IMG/VR virus record: IMGVR_UViG_3300008448_000287
Span: 1-36,313 of that record
Length of the DNA stretch: 36,313 bases
Source of the DNA: a virus
Strand: one strand, 5' to 3'
This document shows, one piece after another, positions 3,180-9,462 of the stretch (its first letter is position 1; each line of letters begins with the position of its first letter). The translations under genes were made by a program, and so were the position numbers. Below the pieces are notes generated by a model. That model saw nothing but the letters and a program-made list of their open reading frames with translations, ran no database searches and was not told the origin of the DNA.

Positions 3180-3736
3180 TGTACTCAGTCAGAGATTTCA
3201 ATGGCAAAAAGTTAGAAAAAGAAGTCATTGAAATTTTAGACTTCTATTCTGTAAATTATCAGTTAAACGGATACGAGAAGATTTTCACTAAGGAGGTTGT
3301 TAACGAGATTAAGCGGTCGCATGATTCTTACAGTATGAGTCAAAGAATGCGTCCTGATTTTATCGTTTTCAAAAACGGAAAATCCAACTATTTAGAGGTA
3401 AAGAATTCAAGTGGCTTCCCTAAAAGTGCCTATGATTATTTGATGGCTCATTATGACCTGGATAATCTTTGGTTTTGCAATAGGAATAAGGATGTAACAT
3501 TGCTTAGGGATTTAAAGTTTGAGATTCCTAAAGAGATTGAACCTATCGCTAAATTCAGAGTTCCTATTATAGATACTTATTGGAGAAGCCCTGATTTATT
3601 ATCGAAAGAAGAACAAAAAAAGTATAAAGACTCTCATTTGAAGTACAAAGGGTTTTACCCTTCAATGTATGCTTTTGGTTTCATTGACTTCAAAAACACC
3701 CAATGGATACCTCTCGATAAATGGATTACAATGTAA
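3179..3736 (+). CDS. PD-(D/E)XK family nuclease
   Basis: The catalytic core is visible at residues 58-76: RPDFIVFKNG...YLEVKNS, with Asp60 and the E-x-K pair Glu73/Lys75. Glu18 in the N-terminal helix could complete the site. The rest (about 100 residues, aromatic-rich) is not recognised. At 185 aa it is close in size to single-domain phage endonucleases. It overlaps the TerL start by 16 bp. Cutting or trimming of replicated DNA near packaging, or an HJ-resolvase-like role, is inferred from this location. Confidence 0.7.
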   Translation: MYSVRDFNGKKLEKEVIEILDFYSVNYQLNGYEKIFTKEVVNEIKRSHDSYSMSQRMRPDFIVFKNGKSNYLEVKNSSGFPKSAYDYLMAHYDLDNLWFCNRNKDVTLLRDLKFEIPKEIEPIAKFRVPIIDTYWRSPDLLSKEEQKKYKDSHLKYKGFYPSMYAFGFIDFKNTQWIPLDKWITM

Positions 3737-5019
3737 AAAAGAAAGTTCTTTTTAGCCCCCATCCAAAACAAGAAGACTTTATGAAGGCTGTCTTGTCAAA
3801 TACATATAAGTATTTGTTGTTTGGAGGTGCAGCAGGAGGTGGCAAGAGTTATGTTTCTCTTGCGACATTGATTGTGTTGGCAAAGATTTATCCTAATAGC
3901 AAGAGTTTTGTTATTCGGGAATCTCTTCCAACTTTGAAAAGAACAACCATTCCATCTTTTTACAAATTATGTCCCGATTCGTTCATTGATTCGTATAACC
4001 AATCGGATCAAATCGTAAGGTTCAAGAATGGAAGTACGATGACATTCTTCCCTGAGAACTATTACATGGATAAGAATCTAACGAGGTTAGATGGTATCGA
4101 AGCGAATTTCTTCTTGATAGAAGAAGGACAAGAAATTCAAAGAAAGACTTTTGAGAAGTGTAAGCTAAGGGCAGGAAGGCATATCATTCCTAATTTGGAT
4201 ATTCAGCCAAATCCGATGATTATGATTACTTGTAATCCTTCTCAGAATTGGACGAAGACAATGTTCCATGACCCTCATGTAAAAGGGGAGTTGGCTAAAG
4301 ATTATTTCTATCAGCAATCCCTGATGAGCGATAATCCTGCTTTGCCTCAATCGTATCTTGAAAGTTTGGAGAATCTTGATGAGATTACCAAAGAAATCTT
4401 TGTAAAGGGAAATTGGGAGATTGTCGATGTCGAGAGGCCATTTGCGTATGCATTTAATAAGGCAAAACACGTTAAACCTGGGCTTCTGCCAAATAATAAC
4501 GAACCCATTATACTATCATTTGATTTTAACGTTGATCCGATTACCTGTTTGGCCGGACAGAGTTATGATGGTACGATTCGGATTCTTAGGGAGTTCAGAT
4601 TACGGAATTCAGACATCTTTCAGTTATGTGATAGGATTCTTTCAACTTTTCCCGATACATATTTCACAATTACCGGTGATGCGTCAGGAAGTAATCGTTC
4701 TGCGATGACTCAAGGAGCGAAAAACTACTATCATATCATCCATCAGCAGTTACAGATACCAAAATCGTCCTTTAAAGTTCCATCATTCAATCCATCAATC
4801 AAAAATAGTCGAATTCTTTTGAATTCTCTTTTAGAAAGACACAAGGACATTTACATTGACAGTACTTGTCAATTTTTGATAAATGACTTGATGAGTGTTC
4901 AGGCTGATGACTCCGGTGACATCGATAAAGCGAAGGATAAGCATTCAACACACTTATTAGATTGTTTCCGTTACTATTTATGGACTTTTCATAGTAACTT
5001 TGTAAAGTATTTAAAATAG
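3721..5019 (+). CDS. terL: Terminase large subunit
   Basis: The DNA-packaging motor ATPase and headful nuclease, which docks on the portal. Walker A is GGAAGGGKS (residues 35-43), Walker B is FFLIEEG (130-136) with catalytic Glu, and the coupling region is MITCNPS (about 168-174). The RNase H-like nuclease domain shows Asp268 (LSFDFNVD), Asp320 (ITGDASG) and Asp414 (LLDCFRY). At 432 aa the length is normal for a phage TerL. It starts within the preceding nuclease gene and is followed by a strong terminator, so it ends the first late transcription unit. Confidence 0.93.
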   Translation: MDYNVKKKVLFSPHPKQEDFMKAVLSNTYKYLLFGGAAGGGKSYVSLATLIVLAKIYPNSKSFVIRESLPTLKRTTIPSFYKLCPDSFIDSYNQSDQIVRFKNGSTMTFFPENYYMDKNLTRLDGIEANFFLIEEGQEIQRKTFEKCKLRAGRHIIPNLDIQPNPMIMITCNPSQNWTKTMFHDPHVKGELAKDYFYQQSLMSDNPALPQSYLESLENLDEITKEIFVKGNWEIVDVERPFAYAFNKAKHVKPGLLPNNNEPIILSFDFNVDPITCLAGQSYDGTIRILREFRLRNSDIFQLCDRILSTFPDTYFTITGDASGSNRSAMTQGAKNYYHIIHQQLQIPKSSFKVPSFNPSIKNSRILLNSLLERHKDIYIDSTCQFLINDLMSVQADDSGDIDKAKDKHSTHLLDCFRYYLWTFHSNFVKYLK

Positions 5020-5234: not shown

Positions 5235-5812
5235 ACCTCTTTAAAAAAAAGAAGCAGACTACAACTGCTACGAAGATTCCAATGATTGAGATTTATGCTG
5301 ATAAGTTTGGAAACAAATGGTATCAGTATGAGAATAATCTGAGTATACCGGCTAAAAGGGCTATTGCAGCTGAGATTGCAACTCGATTTGCTGATATGAA
5401 TCTTACTAAAGAAACTCTGAGTCAATTGATTAATGAAATGAAGAAAAAAGCCAACGATGGAAACATTGTTGACTTATTTCATTTATTGGCTGAGATTGAG
5501 TTCCGATTGGATTTCGTTGGAGAAGAAAGGACTTTATTGGATTTGGCGGTTTGTTACTTTGTGATTGATGGAGAAGATGAGAATGATTTCTCTGAGGTTT
5601 GGCGAAAGAAAAAACTTGACATTCTGTTAGAAGATAGTGATGCCAAGGGTTTTTTTTTAGACAAAGCATTCCAATTCACAATCAAATATTCCAATATGTC
5701 AGAAATCGCTATCCAAGAATATTTAAGAGTGAACGACCCAAACGCATTGAGGATACCTCATATTTTACAAGCATTGAAATCGGGAGATACATCGACAATA
5801 TCAATTATCTAA
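5231..5812 (+). CDS. Tail assembly chaperone, frame-0 product
   Basis: 193 aa, beginning with a Lys-rich stretch and then a mostly helical body. It sits directly before the tape measure gene, where siphophages and myophages encode the G-type tail assembly chaperone. A second open frame at -1 starts just after a TGA (5638-5640) and continues past this stop to 6012, and two correctly phased slippery heptamers lie in the overlap. This matches the G/GT arrangement of lambda-like phages. The protein would coat or deliver the tape measure during tail assembly and be absent from virions. No motif confirms this; the call rests on context and the frameshift layout. Confidence 0.65.
   Translation: MNLFKKKKQTTTATKIPMIEIYADKFGNKWYQYENNLSIPAKRAIAAEIATRFADMNLTKETLSQLINEMKKKANDGNIVDLFHLLAEIEFRLDFVGEERTLLDLAVCYFVIDGEDENDFSEVWRKKKLDILLEDSDAKGFFLDKAFQFTIKYSNMSEIAIQEYLRVNDPNALRIPHILQALKSGDTSTISII
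5653..5659 (+). promoter_or_regulatory. Candidate -1 slippery heptamer T TTT TTA
   Basis: Within a run of nine T (5650-5658) the zero-frame codons are TTT TTT TTA, so T TTT TTA is correctly phased as X XXY YYZ. It is the same heptamer used at the HIV-1 gag-pol site. The -1 frame opens at 5641, immediately after its last stop (5638-5640). Confidence 0.45.
5737..5743 (+). promoter_or_regulatory. Candidate -1 slippery heptamer C CCA AAC
   Basis: Zero-frame codons GAC CCA AAC contain C CCA AAC in perfect X XXY YYZ phase. Slippage here would join frame 0 (...VNDPN) to the -1 frame (RIEDTSYFTSIEIGRYIDN...), which reads more naturally than the sequence directly after the upstream T-run. It is close to the frame-0 stop, as usual for G/GT-type chaperones. 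Confidence 0.5.
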
Positions 5813-6012
5813 ATCAATTAATTTGCGATTCAAAGCCATCAGAGATGAAGGTGTTGGAATCGGGATCAATAGACGAATATTATCAGACCATCAATACCTG
5901 GATTAAGATAGTTGACGAGAAGAATAAGACAGTCCGTGACAATGCTAATGAAGGAGAACAAGAGCAACCTAAAAAAGGAATAAGGAAGAAGTTTCAACCC
6001 AAAATTGAATAA
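5744..6012 (+). CDS. -1 frame extension of the tail assembly chaperone (T-like part)
   Basis: This frame is open from 5641 to a stop at 6010-6012. Reading from the C CCA AAC site it gives about 89 residues, including KPSEMKVLESGSIDEYYQTI, INTWIKIVDEKNK and a charged end before KIE. It can only be reached by frameshifting or by internal starting at an ATG at 5845 (55 aa). It ends 3 bp before the tape measure start. In the G/GT model this domain binds the tape measure while the common N-terminal part recruits tail tube subunits. Separate translation from 5845 is the alternative. Confidence 0.6.
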
Positions 6013-6015
6013 TAG

Positions 6016-9000
6016 ATGGCTGTAAAAAATGTTGTCTTTAAGATAACCGCTGATACACTACAGATAAATAAGCAGTTAGATGTAATAAAGCGAAAAGTAA
6101 ATGCTATTGAAAAAGCTGCAAGAGATGCTGCTACTGCTGTAGGTAATATTGGTAAAAAGAGTACTACTGTAAAAATTACAGCCAATGTTTCTCAGTTGAA
6201 TAATGCCTTAACTCAGGCAAACAATAATATCAATAGAACTACTTCTAATCTTAGTAAATTAAATACTCAAACCAATTCATTAGGCAATTCCATTAAGGGT
6301 GCTGCACTTGCATTTGCAGGATTCCAGGTTGGAAGTCAATTATTGGAATTTGGAAAGGCAGCTGTTGAAGGTGCTGTTCAGTTTGAACGATTAAATGTAT
6401 CGCTGACAACATTCTTAGGAAGTCGTGAGAAGGCACAGCAGTTGATACAAGAGATTGAAGAGTTTGCTGTTGCTACACCTTTTACATCGACAGAGATTCA
6501 GTCAAGTGCAAAGATTCTTCTTGCTTATGGTGTTGAGGCTGAAAATCTTGTTGACACACTTCGTCAATTGGGTGATGTGTCAAGTGCCGGTAATGCAAGT
6601 CTTGAGAATTTGGCTCTTGCGTTTGGACAGGTAGCATCGAAGGGTAAACTTCAAGGTGAAGAGATTAGGCAGTTAGTTAATGCCGGATTCAATCCCCTTC
6701 AGGAAATCGCTGAACTTACAGGAGAGTCAATGGCAACCCTTGCTCAGAAAGTTGAGAAAGGTGAAATATCATTTGCTCTTGTACAAGAGGCGTTCAGAAG
6801 AGCAACATCTGAAGGAGGTCGATTCTTTAAATTGACTGAGCAATTATCTCAATCCCTTGGAGGTCGTATCAGCACATTGGTCGATAAATTTGAAATCTTC
6901 AGAAGGGAGATTGGTCAGTTGCTTGCTCCTGCTGTATCATCAGCAGTTGAAGGATTGATTAAATTCTTTGATAGTGTAAAAGACCTTCCAAATGCAATTG
7001 AAAGGAATAAAACTTCTATTGCACTTTTTACAGGAGGTCTTGTTCTTTTGATTGGTTATCTTACTCGTGCTACACAAGCAAAAATAATCGATAGCGTTTA
7101 TTGGGGAATTTATGGTTTAAGAGTAAACTTCGCAGCACTTCGTTTAAAGGTTCTTTCTGCAAGTGCGAGGCAAGCAAGTATCGCACAAAAGGCATTGGCT
7201 GTTTCGACTACAATTGCTACGAGTGCTTTCAATGGATTAAAAGCTGCATTTCTATCTAATCCATTTGGAATTATTGCTTTTGCAGTAACAGAATTAATTT
7301 TCTTGTTTTCTGATTTTGGTGATGAAGTTGAAAATTCAAGAGAAGAATTAATAAAGTTTGCAAATTCAGGTCAATCGATTGTTGATTCTCAAAAACAAAT
7401 AAGGGTGTCAACAAAACAATCTGCTGAAGAAATAAATAAATTATTTGATGCACTTATTAATAATATAAATAGTGAAGAGAAAAGAAGTAAGATTCTTGAT
7501 GATATTAATAAGAAGTTTGGTATAAATATAGATTTATCAGGAAAAGAAAAAGATGCTCTTGAAAAAGTTATTGCTGCAAGGGATAGACTATTAAAAATAA
7601 CAGCTGCTCAAATTAAACAGACTGAAACACAAAAAAATATTGATGCTGAAATAAAAACACTTGATGATTTAGATACTGAAATAAAAAAAGTATTTAATTC
7701 AAGAGAAAAATTGAAAAAACAAATAGAAGATGAAAGAAAAAAACCAACTGCAAAAGATGGAAGTCCATTTTTAAGTGCCAAAGAACTTGGAACAGAAACA
7801 GAAGCATTTATATTATCATTACAATCACAATTAAAAGCTCTTGAAGAAGAATTACCAAGATTATTTGAATCGAGAGGTATTGTAACTAAGCGTATTGATA
7901 TATTAAAAAATCAAGCAGCAGATGCATATGCAGAATATATTGCTGCAATATCAGATGGAAATGATAAAGCATCTGAATCATTTAAAAAGTTCTTAGAAAA
8001 GTTAAGAGAGTTCCAAAATGAACTTGATAAACTTGACTTGCTAATCAAAAAGAGAAAAATAGAGATTAGGGTAGTAACGAATCTTGAAGAAGAGATTCAG
8101 AAAATAAAAGACCTGGCCGATGTTGATAAGGAACTTCTTCAACTTGAATTGGATAATGAAAAGTTAAAAATTGAGGCTGCTGATTTTACAGAAAAACAAA
8201 AGGCTGCTTTAAAAACAGCTGCAACTCAGGAGTTCAATAAAAAAGTAATTCTTCTTGAGATAGATACACAAGAAGAGATATCTGATATTACTGAAAAGTA
8301 CGCTGAACGAAATGAAGAGGCACGGCTTGATATCATCGAAACCAATATTGATAGGAGGCTTCTTTTAGAGGATGAATATTTTGATGAGTTAAAGAGAAAG
8401 TCTGATAAAATCAGCGAAGAAATTGAGAATGCTAAGACAAAGGCTGCATTAAGAGGCATTCCTGATAGGATAAAACAAAATCTCAATGCTACACTTCAGG
8501 TTCTTAATGCTCAAGAGGCTTTAGAACAAGAAAAGGCCATAGATAGAAGAAATGCTCTTTTAAGAGATAATACTAAAACGCCCGAAGAGCAAGCTGCTAT
8601 ACTTGCAAAATCTTTTACCGAATTAGAAGGTATCAGGATTGAATATGATGGCAAGAGAAGAGATGCACAAGATTTGTTCTTGGAATTGTTTAAGCAATAC
8701 AATGACAAGCAAGTCGAAATTGAAAGACTCAAGAAAGAGGCTATTGAGAAATTATGGCAAGACCTGGCTGATAATATTTTCAAATTGCTAAATGAGATTC
8801 TCAATATTCAGATTGCCAATAGTGAGAGAGCTATCAATAATCAAAGGTCAAGAATAGACCAAGCAAAGGATATTGCCGAACAAGGTAATGCTGAATTGTT
8901 ACAACTTGAGGAAGAGCGTTTGAATAAGTTGATAAAGCAAAGGGAGAAATTTGTTCGTCAGCAACAGGCTCTTGCTTTGATTCAACTTACGGCTGAGTCA

Positions 9001-9462
9001 ACTTTGGCAATTGCAAAAGCTGCTGCACAAGGAGGTGCATTAGCACCATTCACTATAGCAAGTACATTGATTGCTTTAGCAGCAGGATTCGCTCAGGCAA
9101 AAGCACAGGCAGCACAAGCAGTACAAGGATTTGCTACAGGAGGTTATACAGGAGATGGTTCAAAGTATGAAACGGCAGGTGTCGTTCACAAAGGTGAATT
9201 CGTCTTTAATAAGGAAACGACTTCACGCCATCGTAAATTCTTCGAAGACATTCATAAGGGTCGTGATCCTTATTTGTCGGCAGGAATGGGTCAGCAAATC
9301 GTTGTTCTGAATAATTATGGTGTTGAAGAGCGTTTATCACGCATTGAAAAGGCGATTACAAGCCAGGATAGGATGAGTCTGACAATTGATGAGTCAGGCA
9401 TTCATGGTTTGGTATCTCATTACCAATGGAAGAACAATAGAATCCGTAACAAGACAAGGTAA
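6016..9462 (+). CDS. Tail tape measure protein
   Basis: At 1148 aa, the longest gene here. The N-terminal third carries a tape-measure-type domain (KAAVEGAVQFERLNVSLTTF, GSREKAQQLIQEIEEFAVAT, then FTSTEIQSSAKILLAYGVEAE). Two hydrophobic stretches follow (about 335-356 and 415-432), then a long Lys/Glu-rich coiled-coil region, and a C-terminal GFATGGYTGDGSKYETAGVV/HKGEFVFNKE segment typical of tape measures. It sets tail length and is ejected during infection. The length would suggest a tail of roughly 170 nm by the usual 0.15 nm per residue rule. The centre (about 7290-8050) is more A-rich than either end. The stop overlaps the next start (TAATG). Confidence 0.93.
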   Translation: MAVKNVVFKITADTLQINKQLDVIKRKVNAIEKAARDAATAVGNIGKKSTTVKITANVSQLNNALTQANNNINRTTSNLSKLNTQTNSLGNSIKGAALAFAGFQVGSQLLEFGKAAVEGAVQFERLNVSLTTFLGSREKAQQLIQEIEEFAVATPFTSTEIQSSAKILLAYGVEAENLVDTLRQLGDVSSAGNASLENLALAFGQVASKGKLQGEEIRQLVNAGFNPLQEIAELTGESMATLAQKVEKGEISFALVQEAFRRATSEGGRFFKLTEQLSQSLGGRISTLVDKFEIFRREIGQLLAPAVSSAVEGLIKFFDSVKDLPNAIERNKTSIALFTGGLVLLIGYLTRATQAKIIDSVYWGIYGLRVNFAALRLKVLSASARQASIAQKALAVSTTIATSAFNGLKAAFLSNPFGIIAFAVTELIFLFSDFGDEVENSREELIKFANSGQSIVDSQKQIRVSTKQSAEEINKLFDALINNINSEEKRSKILDDINKKFGINIDLSGKEKDALEKVIAARDRLLKITAAQIKQTETQKNIDAEIKTLDDLDTEIKKVFNSREKLKKQIEDERKKPTAKDGSPFLSAKELGTETEAFILSLQSQLKALEEELPRLFESRGIVTKRIDILKNQAADAYAEYIAAISDGNDKASESFKKFLEKLREFQNELDKLDLLIKKRKIEIRVVTNLEEEIQKIKDLADVDKELLQLELDNEKLKIEAADFTEKQKAALKTAATQEFNKKVILLEIDTQEEISDITEKYAERNEEARLDIIETNIDRRLLLEDEYFDELKRKSDKISEEIENAKTKAALRGIPDRIKQNLNATLQVLNAQEALEQEKAIDRRNALLRDNTKTPEEQAAILAKSFTELEGIRIEYDGKRRDAQDLFLELFKQYNDKQVEIERLKKEAIEKLWQDLADNIFKLLNEILNIQIANSERAINNQRSRIDQAKDIAEQGNAELLQLEEERLNKLIKQREKFVRQQQALALIQLTAESTLAIAKAAAQGGALAPFTIASTLIALAAGFAQAKAQAAQAVQGFATGGYTGDGSKYETAGVVHKGEFVFNKETTSRHRKFFEDIHKGRDPYLSAGMGQQIVVLNNYGVEERLSRIEKAITSQDRMSLTIDESGIHGLVSHYQWKNNRIRNKTR

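Follow-up and report, generated by a model that had tools for sequence, protein, structure and literature searches.

A probable G/GT-type programmed -1 frameshift at an invariant T_TTT_TTT heptamer ahead of the tape measure gene in an uncultivated phage family

The locus described here lies in IMG/VR virus record IMGVR_UViG_3300008448_000287, whose 36,313 nucleotides, analysed as one whole stretch, are called the window throughout. Between positions 3721 and 20565 the genes follow the order terminase, the two overlapping frames that we designate G and T, tape measure, tail-like genes, portal (15750) and further genes; the terminase (3721-5019) is the large gene preceding the G gene, and it is this gene, not a recognisable major tail protein, that the G/T pair follows. 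The -1 frame is open from the TGA at 5638-5640 to the TAA at 6010-6012, that is, 200 nt beyond the frame-0 stop (5810-5812), from which 203 nt lead to the tape measure gene with its ATG at 6016 (Table 1); the positions originally predicted for the -1 ORF, the frame-0 stop and the tape measure gene all check out. Shortly after the -1 frame opens, the window carries a run of nine T (T9, 5650-5658), the only T9 that it contains. A phased A_AAA_AAG occurs at 5245-5251, only a few codons from the start of the G gene (AAA AAA AAG AAG); the N-terminal sequences of relatives differ at that place, and the motif has probably arisen by chance from the Lys-rich N terminus. A host may be proposed only loosely, from the closest named tape measures, among which are those of Riemerella and Bacteroides phages.

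Table 1. Position and basis of the features at the G/T locus of the window
Feature	Position	Strand	Basis or comment
Frame-0 ORF, G protein, 193 aa	5231..5812	+	ORF and 74 distinct IMG/VR frame-0 ORFs
-1 frame ORF	5641..6012	+	From 5650, a 120-codon T extension; predicted shifted product 260 aa
Slippery heptamer T_TTT_TTT, invariant (last base of GGT and the following TTT TTT), -1 shift site with the best support	5650..5656	+	40/40 clusters
T_TTT_TTA, overlapping second heptamer, possible accessory slip site	5653..5659	+	T9 lineages only
Dual-coding overlap, both frames constrained	5657..5812	+	Substitution pattern by codon position
C_CCA_AAC, phased, not conserved, outside the mechanism	5737..5743	+	CCC AAA is Pro-Lys in the -1 frame
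ATG in frame with the -1 ORF, start not conserved	5845..5847	+	Lineage comparison
Tape measure protein gene, Pfam TMP_3	6016..9462	+	Starts 3 nt past the end of the -1 ORF

Relatives were sought in IMG/VR with the frame-0 protein, with its alignment and with the alignment of the -1 protein, which yielded about 80 loci, all on virus contigs, comprising 74 distinct frame-0 ORFs (the window and its duplicate counted), the relatives having amino acid identities of 47-63%; searches with tape measures match the contigs of these relatives in a subset. Comparisons were carried out on 40 clusters under 90% identity, on 32 lineages under 85% identity and on a tree of 67 sequences. Loci that were damaged, truncated or duplicate (L023, with T8 and a broken frame, L021, L124, L160 and L024) were kept out of the statistics, and so were L109 and L182, in which T9 is present with an in-frame TGA upstream; in L109 this TGA (~4330) falls within the G gene ahead of an intact T9 site and may represent an error, a polymorphism or recoding. 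No relative of either the G protein of the window or the T part, for which the T sequence of L208 served as query, was found among the cultured phages of INPHARED, and two scans of the contigs of GTDB species genomes likewise returned none.

The pattern of substitution among these relatives follows the codon structure of both frames. Pairwise differences at codon positions 1, 2 and 3 amount to 0.335, 0.207 and 0.632 in frame 0 upstream of the T-run and to 0.378, 0.293 and 0.606 in the stretch of the -1 frame that follows the frame-0 stop, while within the overlap the third positions of frame 0 (0.447) and of the -1 frame (0.404) are both suppressed; the overlap therefore codes for protein in both frames, and the comparison indicates that frame 0 is under selection ahead of the T-run, the -1 frame once frame 0 has ended, and both of them in the overlap. 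When the codons of the window were resampled synonymously with the frame-0 protein held fixed, the -1 overlap was left open in about 0 of 2000 trials; summed over the 32 lineages the resampling gives a log10 P of about -63, a value that takes the lineages as independent, which strictly they are not. The -1 ORF is intact in all intact relatives and ends, in the complete loci, 1-27 nt short of the next ATG. These observations bear on the idea that a homopolymer sequencing indel has split one gene in two, whose probability we regard as practically negligible: T9 is a classic indel site, and L023 has T8 (3426-3433) with a broken frame where the near-identical L019 has T9, a difference that probably reflects an indel in the assembly or real variation of the homopolymer, but the two-frame arrangement is found in about 70 distinct sequences and the overlap is selected in both frames.

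A second possibility is that T forms a gene of its own, with translation initiated internally, for instance at the ATG at 5845, which is present in the window and in many relatives. This we hold to be highly unlikely, for the ATG is absent in L007, L211, L037, L151 and L154, and conservation of the -1 frame begins well before 5845, at the T-run. A start at 5845 was rejected on these grounds, and no conserved internal start for the -1 frame was found among the relatives.

The T-run itself is constrained as well. All intact ones among the about 70 relatives have NNT TTT TTT at the homologous place; both Phe codons of the site are TTT in 40 of 40 clusters, Phe elsewhere in the gene being written TTT 224 times and TTC 199 times, and the codon that precedes them, which may encode G, A, D, N or S, always ends in T. 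On the 67-sequence tree the wobble T at 5650 undergoes 0 parsimony changes while the residue encoded by its codon changes at least 11 times, as compared with a mean of 14.2 changes at the 126 upstream wobble positions; upstream of the overlap, only two columns have an invariant third base, namely this codon before Phe-Phe and a Met codon. The T at 5650 is kept even by the T9 sequences, where T8 and a T_TTT_TTG would remain without it. Because the wobble T and TTT TTT are invariant while the residue changes, the constrained heptamer is T_TTT_TTT (5650-5656).

This places the site one codon upstream of T_TTT_TTA (5653-5659), which the original prediction had named together with C_CCA_AAC (5737-5743). 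Both of these heptamers are indeed present and in X_XXY_YYZ phase; owing to the T9 run, however, the overlap holds four, and G_GGT_TTT (5647-5653) and T_TTT_TTT (5650) had been missed. Phased heptamers of this form occur at about 0.005 per codon in the plus-strand genes of the window, so that some 0.26 would be expected in the 53-codon overlap, and no other phased T7 was seen among 7469 codons scanned. The codon after TTT TTT is TTG or TTA in 19 of the 40 clusters and GTC, GTT or ATC in the remaining 21; T_TTT_TTA was rejected as the main site because T_TTT_TTA/G is missing from about half of the lineages. In the comparison with relatives, the check suggested for the heptamers, no intact relative has lost the T-run and 5845 is not conserved as a start, as opposed to a loss of both heptamers with the -1 frame kept behind a conserved start at that position, which would have spoken against the frameshift.

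A shift at C_CCA_AAC has a very slight probability. The heptamer is phased and recurs at an equal distance from the T-run in L108, L110 and L181, which together with the window make 4 of the 32 lineages; it is nevertheless absent from the other 28, and the 84 nt of the -1 frame that precede it are already conserved. In the -1 frame the stretch reads CCC AAA CGN, or Pro-Lys-Arg, and related lineages write the same Pro-Lys as CCA AAA or CCT AAA, codons with which the heptamer is lost. One extra phased heptamer such as CCCAAAC is unremarkable against the chance rate, and by the alignment it is a by-product of the sequence coding for the T part, to which the earlier impression of two candidates in one overlap reduces. 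The -1 peptide ahead of C_CCA_AAC at first looked unlike protein, which spoke for a shift at this heptamer, but in the alignment that stretch proves to be conserved.

The T-run also invites an explanation at the level of transcription, whereby RNA polymerase would slip on T9 and mixed mRNAs would encode both products. We consider this improbable. No T run in the window is longer than this one, and exactly nine T are found in 35 of the 67 sequences, but the other half have T7 only (one T8) with the architecture unchanged; moreover, a T always stands before TTT TTT while the base after it is free, which fits tandem tRNA slippage and not a need for run length, and the T at 5650 is never lost even where T8 would remain. 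Ribosomal slippage is thus favoured by the T7 run that half of the family carries and by the need for T before and not after TTT TTT, whereas the T9 run in the other half makes a contribution of polymerase slippage possible.

Folding of the RNA, suggested at the outset as a means of finding a stem or pseudoknot, revealed none downstream of the slip site, either in the window, where the 60 nt on its 3' side fold no better than shuffled sequences (z 0.64), or on average over 32 relatives, whose mean folding energy shows no dip after the site. A weak hairpin lies upstream of the site in the window (5610-5650, z -1.9).

The interpretation that we put forward as very probable, on the strength of sequence comparison, is a programmed -1 frameshift of the lambda G/GT type at T_TTT_TTT, within the gene of a G-type tail assembly chaperone, which would give rise to a GT-type product of 260 aa. 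Most ribosomes would stay in frame 0 and produce the 193-aa protein; in a minority, the two tRNA-Phe molecules on TTT TTT, one in the P and one in the A site, would move back one base at T_TTT_TTT, and these ribosomes would continue in the -1 frame to make a protein of 140 frame-0 residues followed by 120 residues of the -1 frame. If the roles match those in lambda, coating of the tape measure protein would be the task of the G part and recruitment of the tail tube subunit that of the T part. The heptamer U_UUU_UUU is far less shift-prone in E. coli than A_AAA_AAG, the most shift-prone of the -1 heptamers there; the efficiency may therefore be low, and a low efficiency would suit the G/GT ratio. 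the ribosomal nature of the shift, its efficiency and the chaperone function are what we infer.

The putative name of tail chaperone derives from gene position and architecture. Neither protein part gave a convincing match when compared with PHROGs, Pfam, NCBIfam, the sequences of the PDB and INPHARED, the hits being sub-threshold only. Low mutual similarity is to be expected between the tail chaperone genes of different phages (PMC5009743), and the absence of a match is therefore not counted against an assignment to this kind, nor is membership of a sequence family claimed. The proposal of a tail assembly chaperone frameshift has accordingly fared well as regards a -1 shift upstream of the tape measure gene, which comparison strongly supports, and less well in its choice of site.

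A more far-reaching idea, which we offer tentatively and with considerable doubt, is that in the dual-coding segment of this uncultivated phage family (41-62 codons, unusually long) the C-terminal part of the frame-0 protein and the beginning of T are each functional and were shaped together, and that in the T9 branch two overlapping phased T heptamers in series, possibly aided by polymerase slippage, raise the efficiency without an RNA stimulator. The locus makes a clear comparative example, in that sequence alone suffices to name one exact heptamer, and it shows Phe-Phe T_TTT_TTN slip sites to be the rule in an uncultivated phage family; the gene call is corrected as well, automatic annotation being likely to report the 193-aa protein alone.

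Phe-Phe sites of the form T_TTT_TTN also recur ahead of tape measure genes in other phages. Loci found by tape-measure similarity contain phased T_TTT_TTC or T_TTT_TTT in G/T-like ORF pairs, the match being one of architecture only, and many of L045-L055, L062-L064, L075, L079, L085, L088 and L100 (L045, L064, L075, L085, L088 and L100 among them) place such pairs some 150-200 nt upstream of the tape measure gene; in L066, L071 and L077, GGGAAAC takes the place of the T-run heptamer. The cultured Parabacteroides phage PF672P1 (L218, 1579-2354) shows, again as an architecture match only, a -1 ORF together with a phased T_TTT_TTT ahead of the tape measure gene; this ORF carries no frameshift annotation, and as a Bacteroidota phage PF672P1 would be convenient for bench work. 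The record L213 (PP511318.1, Dulem virus 31) is filed under Microviridae, but its gene table, which lists a tail sheath, tube, tape measure and baseplate, belongs to a contractile-tailed phage, and the public taxonomy line appears to be wrong.

Several known systems provide a frame for these findings. Lambda likewise yields G and GT products that share an N terminus through a -1 shift, although its heptamer, G_GGA_AAG, is a different one and no sequence similarity between its proteins and those of the window was found. Both lambda products, gpG and gpGT, bind the tape measure protein; frameshifting of the G/GT kind is a widely conserved feature of long-tailed phages (PMC5009743). A closer parallel is P2, whose E and E+E' proteins arise by a -1 frameshift at TTTTTTG without downstream RNA structure (PMC3091744): the T-run on Phe codons, the place of the tail chaperone ahead of the tape measure gene, the direction of the shift and the lack of a downstream structure are all shared. 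No sequence relation to P2 was detected, however, and the window differs in that T_TTT_TTT is invariant while the codon after TTT TTT is free, and in that the frame-0 protein continues for about 50 residues beyond the slip site. Seven-T runs, T7G and T7C, have been reported in the corresponding tail gene of Smp131 and related P2-like prophages, as a prediction only (PMC3931495); the Smp131 tail module is nevertheless of the P2 type, and no sequence relation to the proteins of the window was detected. In the Bacillus phage SPP1, a putative -1 shift at UUUUUUC within the chaperone gene before the tape measure gene gives gp17.5 and gp17.5* (PMC6316719), a site which is again a U-run in the same position, but with another Z base and in another protein family. 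The phage family described here is new; the kind of mechanism is one already known from P2, SPP1 and Smp131.
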